This document shows, one piece after another, positions 248 to 7,297 of a stretch of DNA of 64,000 bases. Origin of the DNA: Gelidibacter mesophilus DSM 14095. Its GTDB lineage: Bacteria; Bacteroidota; Bacteroidia; Flavobacteriales; Flavobacteriaceae. Numbering within the stretch: position 1 is the stretch's first letter; every line of letters starts with the position of its first letter. The translations under genes were made by a program, and so were the position numbers. The notes under the pieces were generated by a model, which did no database searches, was not told the DNA's origin, and worked only from the letters and a program-made list of their open reading frames with translations. The stretch lies in assembly GCF_000423005.1 (NCBI RefSeq), contig NZ_AUHD01000004.1, positions 310,001 to 374,000 of the forward strand. Reading direction: 5' to 3'.

Positions 248-903
248 ATGGAACTCAATAAAAATAAGGCGGTAATAGTTGCCCATCCAGATGACGAAAC
301 GCTGTGGTGTGGCGGTGAGATTTTAAAACACCCAAAAGACCTTTGGTTCGTGGTGAGTTTATGCCGAAAAAATGATTCGGATCGGGCTCCAAAATTTAGA
401 AGAATGCTTGCAAATTATAATGCAGAGGGTGTGATGGGCGATTTGGATGATGGTCCAGAACAAGTTCCGTTAAAATCAAAACAAGTAGAAGAGACGATTT
501 TAGATTTGCTGCCAGAAAAAAAGTATGACCTTATTACACACATAGCCCTTTTGGGGAATACACAAAACATTTGCGCCATGAGGAAGTTGGTAAAGGCGTT
601 ATCACCTTATGGCACAAAAAAAAAATAACCACCAATTCACTTTGGCTTTTTGCATATGAAGATGGAAATAAGGCGTACCATCCGCGTGCCATAGAGAAGG
701 CTGATTTTTGTGAAAAATTACCGTTAAGTATATGGCTTGAAAAATACCGGATTATCACAGAAATCTATGGTTTCGAAAAATCGGGGTTTGAGGCCAAATC
801 CACTCCCGAAAAAGAGGCCTTTTGGCAATTTAAAGATGCGGAAATGGCCTTAAAATGGTTCAATCTAAAACGATCTAAAGAAAACATTATAAAACATGAC
901 TAA
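248..903 (+). pseudogene. PIG-L family N-deacetylase, frameshifted
   Basis: The first part (248 to about 535) encodes the zinc-binding signature AHPDDE near residue 12 and reads as a GlcNAc-PI/LmbE-type de-N-acetylase. The frame then breaks. The continuation in the next frame gives THSPFGEYTKHLRHEEVGKG, the second conserved block of this family, and runs to the TAA at 901-903. Adding one base at about 533-535 (a likely TTT reduced to TT, restoring YDLIYTHSPFGEY) gives an unbroken protein of about 218 residues, a normal family length. The stop overlaps the start of the next glycosyltransferase (TAATG). The family removes N-acetyl groups from sugar conjugates. Either the gene is decayed or the base was lost in sequencing. 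Confidence 0.8.
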
Positions 904-2045
904 TGAAAGTGCTTGTTCTTTATGATTATCCTCCTTCCCCTGGCGGTCTTGCGACGCAGGGAGACATGCTCTACAGAGGTTTGTTGGAGCTGGGGGTTGA
1001 TGCACATGCAGTTCATTTTGAATCGGCTCAAGAGAAAGAATGGTATTACCGATGGTTTGAGCCCGATGTGGTGGTTGGGGTGGGCTATTGGGGCCATACG
1101 CCACATCTGATACTCCATCCGCAACGTTATGGAATTCTGGCCGTTCCTTGGCTGGTCGCAGATGGGTATATCGCCAATTATCAAGAAGTTTTAAACGAAT
1201 TGCCACTGATCTTGGTTACCTCCAATTGGGTGAAAGAAATGTATGTGCGTGATGGCATCCATCCGGATAATATTGAAGTTCTTCCCGTAGGAATAGACAC
1301 GGATGCTTTTACGCCTTTGGAGAAGAACAATCCAAAAATTGCTGCAGTTCGTGAATCTTTAGGCATTTCTCCAGATCAAGTTATGATTTTGACCGTGGGT
1401 GGTGATGCCTCATCTAAAGGCGCCCAAGAAGTCATGCAGGCCTTGGCCATTATAGATACTAAAGCCCCCGATTGGAGATACATTTGCAAAGTATGGCCCC
1501 AACCCCGAACTCTCGTCCAAAATATGATCGATCTGAAAATGGCCGAATCTCTTGGACTCGAAAAAAATATAACCTACGCCACCAATACAGTATCCCGAAA
1601 TTTTATGCCCTATCTTATTGGGGCGTGCGATATTTATGCTGCGCCTTCACGCCTTGAAGGCTTCGGAATGCCACAAGTTGAGGCTGGTGCATGTGGCAAA
1701 CCTGTTATTGGTATCAATGCTATGGGCATGTTGGACACTCTTATCCATAACAAAACCGCCCTTTTGGCGAATGTTGCTCAAAAAATAACCGTAAACGAAG
1801 TTATATTAGGTGAAGAATCGGGTTTTGAAAACAATAGAAAAATTCACTTCGATAGTCCCAGGACAGTAGATTACCGCGCCAATACACAAGATATCGCCAA
1901 GGATTTGCTTAAACTGATGGAAGATGAAAAACTCCGCATAAAAATGGGAGCCGCTGGACGTGCCCGCGCGGTAGAATATTTTGATTACAAAGTGGTCTCC
2001 AAAAAATTTCTCCAAATATTGCAAGAGCGATTAGGAATTAAATAG
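903..2045 (+). CDS. GT4-family glycosyltransferase
   Basis: A 380-residue GT-B fold retaining glycosyltransferase. The N-terminal half begins with the glycine-rich loop PPSPGGLATQGDMLYRG that contacts the acceptor or donor in GT4 enzymes. The C-terminal half carries the E-x7-E nucleotide-sugar motif (EGFGMPQVE, Glu252 and Glu260). No signal peptide or membrane segment is visible, so it should act in the cytoplasm. The start overlaps the stop of the PIG-L gene by one base, and the next gene begins 7 bases downstream, so the three are probably translated from one message. The donor is probably a nucleotide sugar such as GDP-mannose, given the GH130 gene nearby, but that is inference. Confidence 0.85.
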   Translation: MKVLVLYDYPPSPGGLATQGDMLYRGLLELGVDAHAVHFESAQEKEWYYRWFEPDVVVGVGYWGHTPHLILHPQRYGILAVPWLVADGYIANYQEVLNELPLILVTSNWVKEMYVRDGIHPDNIEVLPVGIDTDAFTPLEKNNPKIAAVRESLGISPDQVMILTVGGDASSKGAQEVMQALAIIDTKAPDWRYICKVWPQPRTLVQNMIDLKMAESLGLEKNITYATNTVSRNFMPYLIGACDIYAAPSRLEGFGMPQVEAGACGKPVIGINAMGMLDTLIHNKTALLANVAQKITVNEVILGEESGFENNRKIHFDSPRTVDYRANTQDIAKDLLKLMEDEKLRIKMGAAGRARAVEYFDYKVVSKKFLQILQERLGIK

Positions 2046-2052
2046 ATTTTAA

Positions 2053-3249
2053 ATGAATCCAGAAGATAAAAAATTAATCACCTCTGCAAAAAAGGCCGCC
2101 ACTGACGTGCTTTTGCACAACGCCCATGGCACTGTCGCCGATTTACCACGCACGGCGGGATGGGGGTATCCGGAACCCTATACCAGAGATCTTCTGATAT
2201 CCGTCTTAGGGATTGCAACTACAGGAAATAAGCAACTTTTGCAGAGTGTAAAAAATGTACTTCTGACCTTAGCAAGCAATCAGTCGGAACATGGGCAAAT
2301 TCCATCGCTTGTTCACGATAAGCATAATTTAGGTTCAAGTGATACCACACCTCTTTTTTTGATGGCGGTTGGTATTTTCAGAACCCTACTTGATGATCCT
2401 CATTTTTTGGAAGCCGCTGTGGAAAACGCCGTTGTCTGGATGGCCTACCAGTGCCCCACCAATCATTATTTGATAGCGCAACAACCTACCAGCGATTGGC
2501 GCGATGAACAATGGGTGCTTGGGTACGGTCTTTATGTAAACACACTCACCTACTGTGGTCTTAGGTTTTTGAAAAAGGAAGGACTGGCCAAATATCTTGG
2601 AGATGCCATCGGGCAATTGACCTATGCTTCAGATACATCGCATAAATGCCCACATGAAGGACTTGCCATTTATGACCAACCGTATTTTGCCTTATGGTCT
2701 TATAAAGTATATAGCAGTAATCGGTTTGATTTATTGGGAAACAGTCTCGCCATTTTATCCGGTTTAGCTTCGACGGAAAAAGCCCAAGCCATGGTGAAAT
2801 GGATAGAAAATGAGTGCCAAGCTATGAATCGCACGAAAAATTTAATATTGGATCTGACTCCTAATTTTTTTCCTTTTATCCTACCCGAAGATCCCGACTG
2901 GCTACCAAGATATAGCGATTTTAATAGACCTGGGGATTATCATAATGGCGGGATATGGCCGTTTATCAGTGGGTTTTATATTGCTGCGTTGGTTGCTGCG
3001 AAAGAATTTGATCTGGCCGAAAAGAAACTTTTAGCATTGACCCAGCTCATCAAGAAAGGTAGAAATAAATCGCTGCAATTCGGTTTTAACGAATGGTACA
3101 AAGCCCAAACCGGTGAGCCAATGGGCCAGGATTGGCAAACCTGGAGTGCATCAAATTATCTATATGCGGCTGCCTGTGTGCAAGAACGAAGTATACCTTT
3201 TTTTGATACAATACAATTAAATTCAAATCGACAAACAAATCCAATGTAA
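2053..3249 (+). CDS. (alpha/alpha)6-barrel glycosidase-like protein (GH100/debranching-like)
   Basis: A 398-residue protein with the repeated helical pattern of an (alpha/alpha)6 barrel. Recognisable blocks are PEPYTRDL near residue 40, HGQIPSLVHD and SSDTTPLF around residue 97 (candidate acid Asp), DWRDEQWVLGYGLY in the middle, NGGIWPFISGFY, and NEWYKAQTGEPMGQDWQ starting near residue 346 (candidate base Glu347). This resembles GH100 neutral invertase and amylo-alpha-1,6-glucosidase-type proteins. No signal peptide is seen, so it should be cytoplasmic. It starts 7 bases after the GT4 gene. It may trim or process the glycan that the neighbouring transferases make. Substrate unknown; the fold call is more secure than the family call. 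Confidence 0.7.
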   Translation: MNPEDKKLITSAKKAATDVLLHNAHGTVADLPRTAGWGYPEPYTRDLLISVLGIATTGNKQLLQSVKNVLLTLASNQSEHGQIPSLVHDKHNLGSSDTTPLFLMAVGIFRTLLDDPHFLEAAVENAVVWMAYQCPTNHYLIAQQPTSDWRDEQWVLGYGLYVNTLTYCGLRFLKKEGLAKYLGDAIGQLTYASDTSHKCPHEGLAIYDQPYFALWSYKVYSSNRFDLLGNSLAILSGLASTEKAQAMVKWIENECQAMNRTKNLILDLTPNFFPFILPEDPDWLPRYSDFNRPGDYHNGGIWPFISGFYIAALVAAKEFDLAEKKLLALTQLIKKGRNKSLQFGFNEWYKAQTGEPMGQDWQTWSASNYLYAAACVQERSIPFFDTIQLNSNRQTNPM

Positions 3250-3353: not shown

Positions 3354-5603
3354 ATGAAAATTGCTTTTGTAGCTACATATCCACCACGACAGTGCGGAAT
3401 AGGCACATTTACACACAGTCTCGCTCATGCTATGAAAAACATAGGTGATGGCGAAAATGAAATCATCATAATAGCAATGACTGATAATCATGAAACCTAT
3501 GCATTTCCTCCAGAGGTAAAACTAGTTATACACCAAGAACAGCAAACCGATTATCTAGCCGCTGCCGATTTTATTAACCGAAGCGGGGCCGACGTGTGTA
3601 TTCTTGAACACGAATTTGGTATTTATGGTGGTCAGAGCGGCGTCTACATTTTACCACTTTTACATCGGTTACATATTCCGCTGATCTCAACGTTACATAC
3701 CATTCTTGAAAATCCTTCTTATACAGAAAAAGCCATTTTACAACAGATCTGTAAAATGTCAGATAAATTGGTCGTCATGAGCCATAAGGCAATTGAATTT
3801 CTTAAAGATATTTATGAGGTCCCTACAGAAAAAATTACAAGGATTGAACATGGTGTTCCAGACTTTCATTTTGATAAAAAACAGTCGAGAAATGAACTGA
3901 AATTGGATGACAAGAAATTGCTTTTGACCTTTGGATTTGTTGGGCGCAACAAAGGTATTGAGACCGTAATAAAAGCCTTGCCACAAATTATTGAAAAGCA
4001 TCCCGAGGTGTTTTATATGGTATTGGGAAAAACACATCCCAATGTACTTAGAAGTGCGGGTGAAGAATATAGGAGCTACCTCCAGATGCTCATCAAGAAC
4101 TTAAAACTTGGTGAGCATGTTGTTTTGCTCAACGAATTTGTTGAAGAAAAAGAACTTTTTAAATACTTGGCGGCCTGCGATATTTATATTACCCCTTATA
4201 TCAATGAAGCCCAAATTACCAGCGGGACACTCACGTACGCCATGGGGTCTGGTTGTGTGGTAGTCTCCACTCCTTATTGGCATGCGGCAGAATTACTTAC
4301 AGAAAATAAAGGCTGTCTTTTTGATTTTAAAGATGAGGCTGGATTGGCAACGGTCTTAAACGAGTTGTTAGAGAAGCCCAATTTAATGAAAACCATTCAA
4401 CAGAAAGCCATACAATATGGTCAGGATATTATCTGGCCAAAAATTGGAAAGAGCTATTACGATCTATCCAAATACCTGATGTTGGAGTTGTCTAAACCGA
4501 GACAAAAAAAAGAAACGGACATCGATCTTTTATTGTTGCCCCCATTTTCATTGGCGCATATTAAAAGACTTACGGACGATACCGGCATCATCCAGCACGC
4601 CAAGTTTGGGATTCCAAATCTAAAGGAAGGCTATTGTCTTGATGACAATGCCAGGGCACTTCTGATGGTTTGCATGGCTTACAAACAGAAAAAAAGCATG
4701 CTGGCTTTAGAGTTAATGCCGGTATATATGAGTTACATCCATTATTTGCAAAATACGGATGGCACTTTTCGGAATTTTCTGAGTTTCAATCGGAATTTTT
4801 TGGATCAAGTCGGTTCTGAGGATTCCTTTGAGAGGACTATCTGGGTATTGGGCTACCTAATGGGCCATGCACCAAATGACGCCTATTATCAAAGTGCACG
4901 TTTGATTTTCTTTAATGCTTCCCCTAATTTTGAAAAGCTCAAATCTATCCGAGGTATCGCCAACACCATTATTGGCATCTGTTACTATCTTAAAACAAAT
5001 ACGTCAGATGCTGAGATGAAAATGATTTTACTGCGACTGACGGACATCCTTGTTGCTCATTTCGAACAAAATCAATCAGAAAATTGGAATTGGTTCGAGT
5101 CACTCTTGGCCTATGACAACGGCATTTTGCCCCTTGCCTTGCTCCATGCTTCACAGACTCTAGAAAACAAAAAAGTAAAGAAGATTGCTTTTAAGGCGAT
5201 GCAGTTTTTAACGTCCCACACACTTAAAGATGGGTATCTTTCAGTAATCGGGAACCGACAGTGGTATGTAAAAGACAAAGAACGCTCCATTTATGCACAA
5301 CAGCCTATCGATGCCATGGCTATGGTGCTCATGTATCATCAGGCTTTTGTTATAACAGCGGAACGAGGATATTTGGAGAAATTGTTTACGTCTTTCATGT
5401 GGTTTTTAGGTGAAAATGATTTGCGCATGAGCCTTTATGATTTTGAAACGAAGGGTTGTTGCGATGGGTTTGAAGATTACGGTGTCAACCGAAATCAGGG
5501 TGCAGAAAGTTCACTGGCCTACCTTATCTCTCACCTTACGGTGCTTCAGGCTTATGAGGAGTCTTATCATGGGCAAGAATTAAAAGTTTTTACTGATTTG
5601 TAG
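3354..5603 (+). CDS. GT4 glycosyltransferase fused to an (alpha/alpha)6-type domain
   Basis: A 749-residue two-domain protein. Residues 1 to about 375 are a GT-B glycosyltransferase with the N-terminal loop YPPRQCGIGTFTHSL and the donor-site stretch GFVGRNKGIETVI. The usual E-x7-E is altered: Glu285 is kept (NEAQITSGTLTYAMG) but the second Glu is Leu. Residues from about 396 on (LAHIKRLTDDTGIIQHA, then a LDDNARALLMV block) form a helical repeat domain like the six-hairpin glycosidases. The preceding gene encodes a separate (alpha/alpha)6 protein, so the locus carries this fold twice. No signal peptide. It lies 104 bases after the glycosidase-like gene. The fusion suggests that elongation and trimming, or substrate binding, are coupled in one polypeptide. 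Confidence 0.8.
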   Translation: MKIAFVATYPPRQCGIGTFTHSLAHAMKNIGDGENEIIIIAMTDNHETYAFPPEVKLVIHQEQQTDYLAAADFINRSGADVCILEHEFGIYGGQSGVYILPLLHRLHIPLISTLHTILENPSYTEKAILQQICKMSDKLVVMSHKAIEFLKDIYEVPTEKITRIEHGVPDFHFDKKQSRNELKLDDKKLLLTFGFVGRNKGIETVIKALPQIIEKHPEVFYMVLGKTHPNVLRSAGEEYRSYLQMLIKNLKLGEHVVLLNEFVEEKELFKYLAACDIYITPYINEAQITSGTLTYAMGSGCVVVSTPYWHAAELLTENKGCLFDFKDEAGLATVLNELLEKPNLMKTIQQKAIQYGQDIIWPKIGKSYYDLSKYLMLELSKPRQKKETDIDLLLLPPFSLAHIKRLTDDTGIIQHAKFGIPNLKEGYCLDDNARALLMVCMAYKQKKSMLALELMPVYMSYIHYLQNTDGTFRNFLSFNRNFLDQVGSEDSFERTIWVLGYLMGHAPNDAYYQSARLIFFNASPNFEKLKSIRGIANTIIGICYYLKTNTSDAEMKMILLRLTDILVAHFEQNQSENWNWFESLLAYDNGILPLALLHASQTLENKKVKKIAFKAMQFLTSHTLKDGYLSVIGNRQWYVKDKERSIYAQQPIDAMAMVLMYHQAFVITAERGYLEKLFTSFMWFLGENDLRMSLYDFETKGCCDGFEDYGVNRNQGAESSLAYLISHLTVLQAYEESYHGQELKVFTDL

Positions 5604-5828: not shown

Positions 5829-7297
5829 TCAATTTTCCATAGCCTCAAATAATGCTGTCATTTCCACTACAGCATATGTGGTAGAATAATCGGAAACTGC
5901 ATAAGGCAAGATCAAATTATTGTTATGGATAACGGAGCCACAGGAATACACAACATTAGGCACATAGCCTTCCCTTTCGGTTTCTAAAGGCATAAGCAAT
6001 GGTTCTTTGAGTCGGCCAATTTCTTTGGTCGGATCGTCTAAATCGAACAAGGAGGCCCCTATACAATACCGCCGCATTGGGCCTACCCCATGGGTAATAA
6101 TCAACCAACCTTTTTCAGTCCAGATCGGAGATCCACAATTTCCCATTTTTGAAAATTCCCAAGGATATTTTGGCTGTTGTAAAAGAATTGGATCCGTCCA
6201 AAGCGTGTTTCTATCCGAAAACATAATGTAATTATTGATCCCATCCAATCGAGAAAGCATGGCATATTGGCCGTTGATCTTTTTAGGGAAAAGTGCCAAG
6301 TTTTTACCCATAGCACCTTTACCGTGCAAAGGCATGATCCGAAAGGTGTAAAAATCTTCAGTAGACAGGAACTTAGGTAAGATGGTGTGGCCATTATACG
6401 CAGTATAAGTAGCATAATAGGTAATGCTGCCGTCATCGTCAGTAAACTGAACAAAACGCGCATCTTCTATGCCTCCGCTCTCTGATTCTGAAACCGGATA
6501 AATGACCCGTTCACTGATATCAGAATCGCGTTCAAATTCTATGTCATAATAAGAATCCACCAGCCAAGTGATTTCTTCAAGAGCTACCCGTTTATCAATA
6601 CTAATATCCGCATCCTTTAAAATATGATTTACCGAATTTTTCAAGGTAAAATACTCAAAATGGTCTGGTAAGTTTTCTACTATCACCTTTGAATATTTAT
6701 CTGGAATTTCCATCTCCTTCATTTTTTTTACAAAACGGCCCTTATGATATAGTTTTTTATGAGATACATCTGCGGTGTCCATGGAATTACCGATCTTCAT
6801 TAAATGAAGATTATTATGTATATCAAGAATTGCCCTTCTAAATACAATTGATGAAATATGTCCTTCACCCGTAGCCCTGAAAGAAATAATAACGCGCATT
6901 TCACCTTTCTCCAAATAGGTCTGATCACTGTCAGGAATGATGGAGGGATTAAAAAAAGCTGTCGATTCCATGGAGTATTCCATAGTAAGATAAGAACCTA
7001 TAAGCATTTTCCGGTCCACAGAAATCGCATCAAGTTGACCTCCATCTGGTCAATTAAACCTCTAACATTTTCGCAATGTCTTTTAAATAATTTAGTGATG
7101 TTACGATGTCTTGCAGAAAACTCCCGCAATGTTTGCTGTAAAGCAACGTGAACCTCGTTTTCAGTCATACCAAATACCAGTGATAGCATATTCTTTGTAC
7201 CTTGATCGCCATTCATAAAATAGCGGGCAATAACCCTGCTAGAATCGGGTAGAAATTTCAATTCTTTTCGTGTTACAGGAACTCTCATTTTATTCAA
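5829..7297 (-). pseudogene. GH130 beta-mannoside phosphorylase/mannosidase, frameshifted
   Basis: Two minus-strand segments make one enzyme: 7297 down to about 7031 gives the N-terminus (LPDSSRVIARYFMNGDQ, RHRNITKLFKRHCENVRG), and 7019 to 5829 gives the rest (TMEYSMESTAFFNPSI, GEGHISSIVFRRA, GGIEDARFV, SRLDGINNYI, GNCGSPIWTEKGW). They are out of frame by one base. Adding one G between minus-strand positions 7031 and 7030 (TTGGATGCG instead of TTGATGCG) reads NLDAISVDRKMLIGSY and gives about 489 residues, the usual size of this long GH130 form. Members cleave beta-mannosides by phosphorolysis or hydrolysis; which applies cannot be decided here. It is convergent with the GT genes. The start could be 7297 or the Met at 7288. 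Confidence 0.85.

Follow-up and report, generated by a model that had tools for sequence, protein, structure and literature searches.

In mycobacteria, the methylmannose polysaccharide depends on a mannosyltransferase, ManT, which is paired with an endomannosidase, MmpH, that cuts mature chains to supply primers; the MmpH residues tested were Asp47, Asp50 and Glu262 (PMC9883506). In Thermoanaerobacter, GH130 phosphorylases cluster with a GT4 glycosyltransferase gene and with the synthesis of guanosine diphosphate (GDP)-mannose; the authors proposed a salvage role and noted that this genus had no known source of 1,2-beta-oligomannan (PMC4264767). Leishmania runs a mannogen cycle based on GT108 enzymes, in which a beta-1,2-mannan serves as an energy store and is turned over by phosphorolysis (PMC8950772). 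Each of these three sources is cited here for a part of its text. Here we describe a gene of Gelidibacter mesophilus DSM 14095 whose predicted product joins a GT-B glycosyltransferase to a barrel domain on a single chain, and which is closely associated with GH130 genes. The gene lies in a stretch of 64,000 nucleotides (contig NZ_AUHD01000004.1, positions 310,001 to 374,000 of the forward strand), the whole of which is called the window below.

Architecture of the fused protein

The original prediction saw in this protein a GT-B transferase with a six-hairpin glycosidase-like domain attached; AlphaFold models and comparison with the PDB bear out both folds, and Pfam the transferase. The features of the gene are the following (positions are those of the window).

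3354-5603, + strand: glycosyltransferase-barrel fusion gene (ATG start, 749 aa)
3354..4502, + strand: GT-B (GT4-like) glycosyltransferase domain, residues 1-383, without the E-x7-E pair (Pfam, fold comparison, motif alignments)
4206..4238, + strand: loop E285 to Y295 in place of E-x7-E (61-row alignment; alignment to solved GT4 enzymes)
4503..5600, + strand: C-terminal (alpha/alpha)6 domain, residues 384-749, YPO2471-like (AlphaFold2; fold and profile match to 7tem)
4641..4646, + strand: Asp430-Asp431, putative catalytic residues common to YPO2471 (alignments)
5505..5507, + strand: Glu718 of the NQGAES motif, putative catalytic residue common to YPO2471 (alignments)

Pfam recognizes Glyco_transf_4 at residues 15-168 (E-value = 2.7e-8) and Glycos_transf_1 at residues 175-353 (E-value = 3.2e-19). 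An AlphaFold2 model of the whole protein, built with 61 sequences, reached a predicted local distance difference test score (pLDDT) of 87.2, and the barrel domain predicted alone gave a pLDDT of 89.5 with a predicted template modelling score of 0.91. Compared with the PDB, the transferase domain exhibits full-length fold matches to GT4 enzymes (Z-scores of 32-37); those of the GT-B part of the whole-protein model include sucrose-phosphate synthase (6kih, Z = 36.8), MshA (3c4q, Z = 35.3) and PimA (2gej, Z = 34.8). The protein is, as modelled, a GT-B transferase joined to an (alpha/alpha)6 domain.

Against three Gelidibacter relatives, the ratio of nonsynonymous to synonymous substitution rates (dN/dS) is 0.036-0.053 for the barrel domain and 0.056-0.088 for the transferase, these values being rough since dS exceeds 1. 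By this estimate strong purifying selection acts on the fusion gene. On the reverse strand, frame 1 across the open reading frame (ORF) contains many stops.

The E-x7-E loop of the transferase domain

The E-x7-E motif had been noted to lack its second glutamate, with Glu285 followed by a leucine at +8. The loss itself was borne out and extends to the entire family, but the leucine is probably not the equivalent residue. Among the 61 close relatives, Glu285 is kept in 56, whereas Q287, I288, T289, S290, G291, T292, L293 (the position at +8) and Y295 are invariant. No glutamate occurs at column 293 or 295 in any of these 61 rows, nor in any of the 24 rows covering the loop in a wider multi-phylum set; there the motif reads Q-x-x-S-G-T-x-x-Y, with phenylalanine at the last position in two rows and aspartate in one. 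When the family profile is aligned to 5i45, 6kih and 3c4q, a gap opens within the E285-Y295 loop, and the second glutamate of 6kih and 3c4q falls opposite Tyr295. Judged from these alignments, the structural counterpart of the second glutamate is probably Tyr295 and not Leu293, and the canonical pair is gone family-wide in either register, not through a local mutation. Bacterial glycogen synthase has a tyrosine at the second position of the motif, so that the missing glutamate alone is no proof of a dead or an inverting enzyme.

The barrel domain

The (alpha/alpha)6 fold of the C-terminal half, on which the original prediction hinged, is well supported in the model. Cellobiose 2-epimerases, GH9-type and GH76 structures are among the 14 best fold matches, which align over 310-344 residues at Z-scores of 27.7-36.0; the 50 matches listed span Z-scores of 22.0-36.0 and contain known (alpha/alpha)6 barrels. 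The best match is YPO2471 (PDB 7tem; Z = 36.0, 330 residues, 2.9 Å), which is also the sole significant solved relative by sequence profile (E-value = 2.7e-19). Next come the cellobiose 2-epimerases (Z about 28-29); others are the GH9-type 3h7l (Z = 27.9), 6gdt (Z = 27.4) and the GH76 structure 4v1r (Z = 27.7). The mycobacterial endomannosidase MmpH (7qsj) scores 23.5. A profile or fold match by itself says nothing on activity.

Comparison with GH15, GH63, GH100 and GH125, the families first considered as its kin, led elsewhere. No Pfam family matches the window's barrel domain at E-values up to 1, its nearest relative by profile being YPO2471, and none of these four is among the nine Pfam families matched by the 23 barrel-domain members scanned; Pfam has models for GH15, GH63 and GH125. 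The matches that these 23 relatives do exhibit are weak: GH88 in 17 (best E-value = 2.4e-6), the D-glucuronyl C5-epimerase family C5-epim_C in nine (best E-value = 1.9e-6), GH127 in two, and single matches to other families. We therefore assign the domain to no named GH family, as the window's own domain is without a Pfam match and the best E-values of its relatives are only about 2e-6.

The barrel domain and YPO2471 have the motifs D-D-x-A-R-A and N-x-G-A-E-S in common. Eight acidic residues (D408, D430, D431, D490, E582, D653, D704, E718) are invariant in the 61 close relatives. Some of them, such as D408, vary in distant members, and a glutamate replaces Asp430 in one distant row (L145). 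Asp430-Asp431, near the start of the domain, and Glu718, near its end, are our candidates for catalytic residues because they are invariant in the 61 rows and common to 7tem (compare Asp47, Asp50 and Glu262 of MmpH). Histidines kept in at least 60 of the 61 rows are H402 and H415 only, both near the domain start. At residue 493 (window 4830-4832) the window protein has a glutamate, where the other 60 of the 61 rows have a glycine.

Distribution and age of the fusion

We searched a sample of 395 Bacteroidota genomes, counting the transferase domain at an E-value of 1e-50 or better, and found it in 74 genomes at 76 places. At 74 of these places it belongs to a single open frame of more than 700 codons; the remaining two (L147, L148) are adjacent separate genes. 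A search with the barrel domain (E-value of 1e-6) reached 90 of the 395 genomes, including those with free-standing YPO2471-like proteins. A second, diverged copy of the fusion, 34% identical, is located elsewhere in the same genome as the window. Beyond this sample, a scan of GTDB genomes gave at least 544 relatives, of which the best 80 loci, mostly from Bacteroidota, were analysed; some of the 80 are metagenome-assembled records labelled as other phyla, which may be misbinned. Matches were also obtained in 28 plasmid records (in 24 the match covers 80% or more of the protein), all alphaproteobacterial except one Ilyobacter and one Deinococcus. Where these plasmid genes are annotated, their names are generic, mostly "glycosyltransferase family 4 protein". 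No account of a transferase-barrel fusion was found in searches of the openly licensed literature of PMC.

In a midpoint-rooted tree built from 39 transferase domains, forms that are split or lack the barrel fall among the fused ones, with L147 and L148 on long branches and of unsure placement. This topology points to an old fusion followed by splits or losses. An annotation or assembly artefact was considered as the origin of the fusion and rejected, given the one open frame at 74 of 76 places and the nesting of the other forms within the fused tree.

Association with GH130 and mannose genes

The strongest clue to the role of the fusion did not figure in the original prediction: it is the association with genes for GH130 beta-mannoside phosphorylases and mannose metabolism. 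At no fewer than 59 of the 76 Bacteroidota places a GH130 gene is found no more than 5 kb from the transferase match, and at three the distance is between 5 and 12 kb; a chance neighbour within 5 kb would be expected at about 1% (assuming a density of 3.3 genes per 4.2 Mb; the window genome has five GH130 genes in 4.43 Mb). GH130 is present in all 74 genomes with the fusion but in only 67 of the 321 others (Fisher p = 5.5e-41, a value that overstates independence as the genomes are related). For long GH130 proteins (E-value of 1e-60 or better) the counts are 47 of 74 and 9 of 321. The flanks of 72 of the 80 GTDB loci contain GH130, and the diverged paralogue of the fusion also adjoins a long GH130 gene. 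Ten of the 28 plasmid records were inspected, with flanks of 6 or 9 kb; GH130 is found near the match in nine of the ten, one of which (Croceicoccus) has the transferase alone. Free-standing YPO2471-like barrel homologues, too, are neighbours of GH130 genes (L017, L144-L146, L155).

As to mannose genes, the window genome has GH130, a phosphomannomutase-like HAD protein and mannose-6-phosphate isomerase encoded about 5-8 kb upstream on the same contig; beyond these lie ORFs reading as gnd, zwf, pgl and pgi. A gene for mannose-1-phosphate guanylyltransferase or mannose-6-phosphate isomerase is present in four of the ten plasmid records inspected. On the plasmid of Sphingobium yanoikuyae, the genes for guanylyltransferase, isomerase, fusion, GH130 and phosphomannomutase stand in one row.

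Several other arrangements were observed. Loci L144-L146 combine the fusion, long and short GH130 genes, a free-standing YPO2471-like homologue, and ORFs reading as parts of a sugar ABC transporter; L144 and L146 also encode a GH2-like protein. On two Rhizobium plasmids, an AGE-family epimerase gene directly follows the fusion and GH130 (L153 12658-13791; L158 9658-10788). In one genome (G033, L007 1-1326) a long GH130 protein carries an apparent C-terminal response-regulator receiver domain, which suggests regulated phosphorolysis.

The window locus and other neighbours

In the window, the fusion gene is preceded by a PIG-L-type gene, a second GT4 gene and a GH100/GH63-like glycosidase gene, and followed by a convergent long GH130 gene:

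248..903, + strand: gene for a PIG-L-type deacetylase, interrupted by a change of frame in this assembly (two frames; intact relatives in L034, 219 aa, and L035)
903..2045, + strand: second GT4 glycosyltransferase; E-x7-E retained as E252-x7-E260 (Pfam; E252 and E260 invariant in 12 rows)
2053..3249, + strand: free-standing GH100/GH63-like glycosidase (Pfam GH100, E-value = 3.6e-12 over the later part; solved invertases)
5829..7288, - strand: convergent gene for a long GH130, likewise interrupted by a change of frame in this assembly (Pfam PF04041; two frames)

Intact relatives of the broken GH130 gene are found in L005 (486 aa) and, as a paralogue, at L003 10163-11632. The gene directly before the fusion had been taken to encode a protein of the same general fold as the barrel. 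It does encode a separate glycosidase of GH100/GH63-like type (46.2 bits against Pfam GH100, for a cut-off of 23.6; solved invertases match its later part only), but no sequence relationship to the barrel domain is detectable (hhalign probability 0.2%), and an origin of the two by duplication is without sequence support. This GH100-like gene (2053-3249) exhibits a dS of 0.113 to Gelidibacter pelagius (L035), whereas dS exceeds 1 for the genes on either side; it is likely a recombination tract.

Among the 80 GTDB loci, for which neighbour counts are lower bounds since several contigs are short, a third GT4 is found in 45, the GT4 / GH100-like module in 15 and PIG-L in 16. Stress genes occur on two plasmids, GroES/GroEL and Hsp20 on one and DnaK and GrpE on the other. 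The ORFs beside the second fusion copy and its GH130 (L003 5345-16543) read as LigD, Ku and a large catalase, which would make this a neighbourhood of stress or dormancy type. In the 80 loci, Hsp20 was found in six and DnaK in one, and GroEL, catalase, Ku and LigD in none. The link to stress genes is thus suggestive on two plasmids and beside the paralogue but weak across the 80 loci, and we do not rely on it.

A possible mannoside cycle

Starting from the predicted folds, the kept fusion and its genomic neighbours (GH130 and, in some loci, mannose genes), we propose a model that extends to donor, linkage and activity: the fusion may be the two-domain enzyme of an intracellular mannoside cycle. 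We put this forward tentatively, with a confidence slightly short of even. The GT-B domain would transfer mannose from GDP-mannose to a growing mannoside. The barrel domain, as a glycosidase modelled on the pairing of MmpH with ManT, would cut or trim the same product, setting its length or freeing primers. The GH130 phosphorylases encoded nearby would turn the mannoside into mannose-1-phosphate, which could enter central metabolism through phosphomannomutase and mannose-6-phosphate isomerase or be re-activated to GDP-mannose. Sequence and fold comparison of the transferase recover two solved GDP-mannose-dependent enzymes, PimA and PimB', and the fold matches comprise MmpH (7qsj) for the barrel and, for the transferase, its partner mannosyltransferase (7qsg).

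A number of points weigh against such a cycle. In the fold search, GT4 enzymes dependent on UDP-sugars (UDP, uridine diphosphate) reach scores as high as that of PimA, so that the donor is not fixed. A real tension comes from the stereochemistry: retaining GT4 chemistry yields an alpha-mannoside and GH130 cuts beta-mannosides, and the proposal thus needs either inverting chemistry or another role of GH130. In the part of PMC8950772 covered here, beta-1,2-mannoside phosphorylases are assigned to exogenous yeast mannan. At 14 of the 76 Bacteroidota places no GH130 lies within 12 kb, and none is found in the 9 kb flanks of the Deinococcus plasmid copy. The adjacent GH130 and PIG-L genes of the window are both broken, by sequencing error or real decay. 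Genes for the isomerase and for HAD-type phosphomannomutase are near the fusion in only three of the 80 Bacteroidota loci, all Gelidibacter (a second type of phosphomannomutase is near it in one further locus, L108), and a guanylyltransferase is near it in none. A genome of the same genus (G001, L008 1498-2649) encodes a transferase of 383 residues that stops at the linker and has no barrel, the second copy elsewhere in that genome being fused, and the Croceicoccus plasmid copy lacks the barrel likewise. Finally, no function of YPO2471, the closest structural relative of the barrel, was found in the literature searched.

The tension between GH130 and an alpha-linked product would disappear if the clade without E-x7-E were inverting. 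Such a clade could be a beta-mannosyltransferase with a built-in chain-cutting domain, and its product a beta-mannan reserve made by the bacterium itself, comparable to mannogen. We regard this as an unlikely extension, but it would make the finding much more interesting and would give bacterial beta-1,2-oligomannan phosphorylases the substrate source that they have so far lacked.

That the barrel acts on the product of the transferase, by regulating chain length or by binding, was part of the original prediction and is supported in spirit: the strong purifying selection and the invariant acidic residues are in keeping with an active domain whose target is the glycan made by the transferase. 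The barrel might instead bind carbohydrate or sense chain length without catalysis, keeping the product in place for the transferase. Hydrolase-like folds are known to have been recruited for binding, and the G001 protein indicates that the transferase can exist without the barrel; however, the barrel is at least as conserved as the transferase in dN/dS, and some of its invariant acidic residues are kept in YPO2471. We consider a binding-only role improbable. We would give no more credit to a system that makes a small mannosylated compatible solute and not a polymer. The free-standing glycosidase weakly matches glucosylglycerate hydrolase and chaperone genes lie near the fusion in some loci, but that glycosidase is present in only 15 of the 80 loci, and the chaperone genes are as sparse there as reported above.

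Rather more doubtful is the view that the transferase makes an exported or surface glycan, either an exopolysaccharide or a lipid-linked one, and that the GH130 enzymes encoded nearby help the cell to take up and use mannans from outside. Envelope glycans are a common task of GT4 enzymes, L144-L146 hold putative sugar transporter genes, and the exogenous substrates given in PMC8950772 would suit this view. No flippase or polymerase was, however, recognised by reading among the 14 families that recur in at least six of the 80 loci, and the GH130 association holds in Bacteroidota as well as on plasmids of other phyla. Very unlikely is a barrel acting as an N-acylglucosamine/cellobiose 2-epimerase that alters the reducing-end sugar of product or acceptor: cellobiose 2-epimerases follow 7tem in the fold search and the epimerase gene next to fusion and GH130 on the Rhizobium plasmids would be in keeping with it, but 2-epimerases rely on conserved histidines of the later barrel half, where none is conserved here, and a further gene for an epimerase would be superfluous.

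The usual view of GH130 phosphorylases is that they serve the consumption of outside mannans (as in the part of PMC8950772 covered here). A fusion that tracks GH130 in the sampled Bacteroidota and adjoins it on plasmids from Alphaproteobacteria and Fusobacteria is a concrete candidate for the maker of an intracellular GH130 substrate, and under the proposed cycle many bacteria may hold an unstudied system that both builds and trims an intracellular mannose-containing sugar. The fusion also offers a natural test of the replacement of E-x7-E in GT-B enzymes, and poses the question why a polymer-building and a presumed polymer-cutting domain stay on one chain.

Comparison with known systems

The retaining enzymes of GT4 (MshA, PimA, PimB', sucrose-phosphate synthase) resemble the fusion in GT-B fold and Pfam domains, but the fusion lacks the E-x7-E glutamate pair in all rows inspected and carries an extra domain. 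YPO2471 (7tem) is like the barrel in fold and in the two motifs, but is described as exported and free-standing. The Leishmania GT108 enzymes, in the part of their source covered here, are dual-activity enzymes of GH130 fold, as against the GT-B transferase found here; the long GH130 did not match the solved GT108 enzyme 6q50 at E-values up to 0.1. The Thermoanaerobacter cluster shares with the fusion loci the combination of GH130 and GT4, together with GDP-mannose synthesis, and a barrel fusion is not mentioned in the text of PMC4264767 covered. ManT and MmpH resemble the fusion in pairing a mannosyltransferase with an endomannosidase fold, a likeness seen here as fold matches only. They differ in being encoded by separate genes, in their alpha-1,4 linkage and in the methyltransferases of their cluster, and GH130 goes unmentioned in the text of PMC9883506 covered; no methyltransferase was found near the fusion among the window and locus proteins scanned with Pfam, where no systematic search was made. 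With both activities presumed to reside on one chain in the fusion, ManT/MmpH is, by analogy, the closest worked example for the mannoside cycle proposed here.

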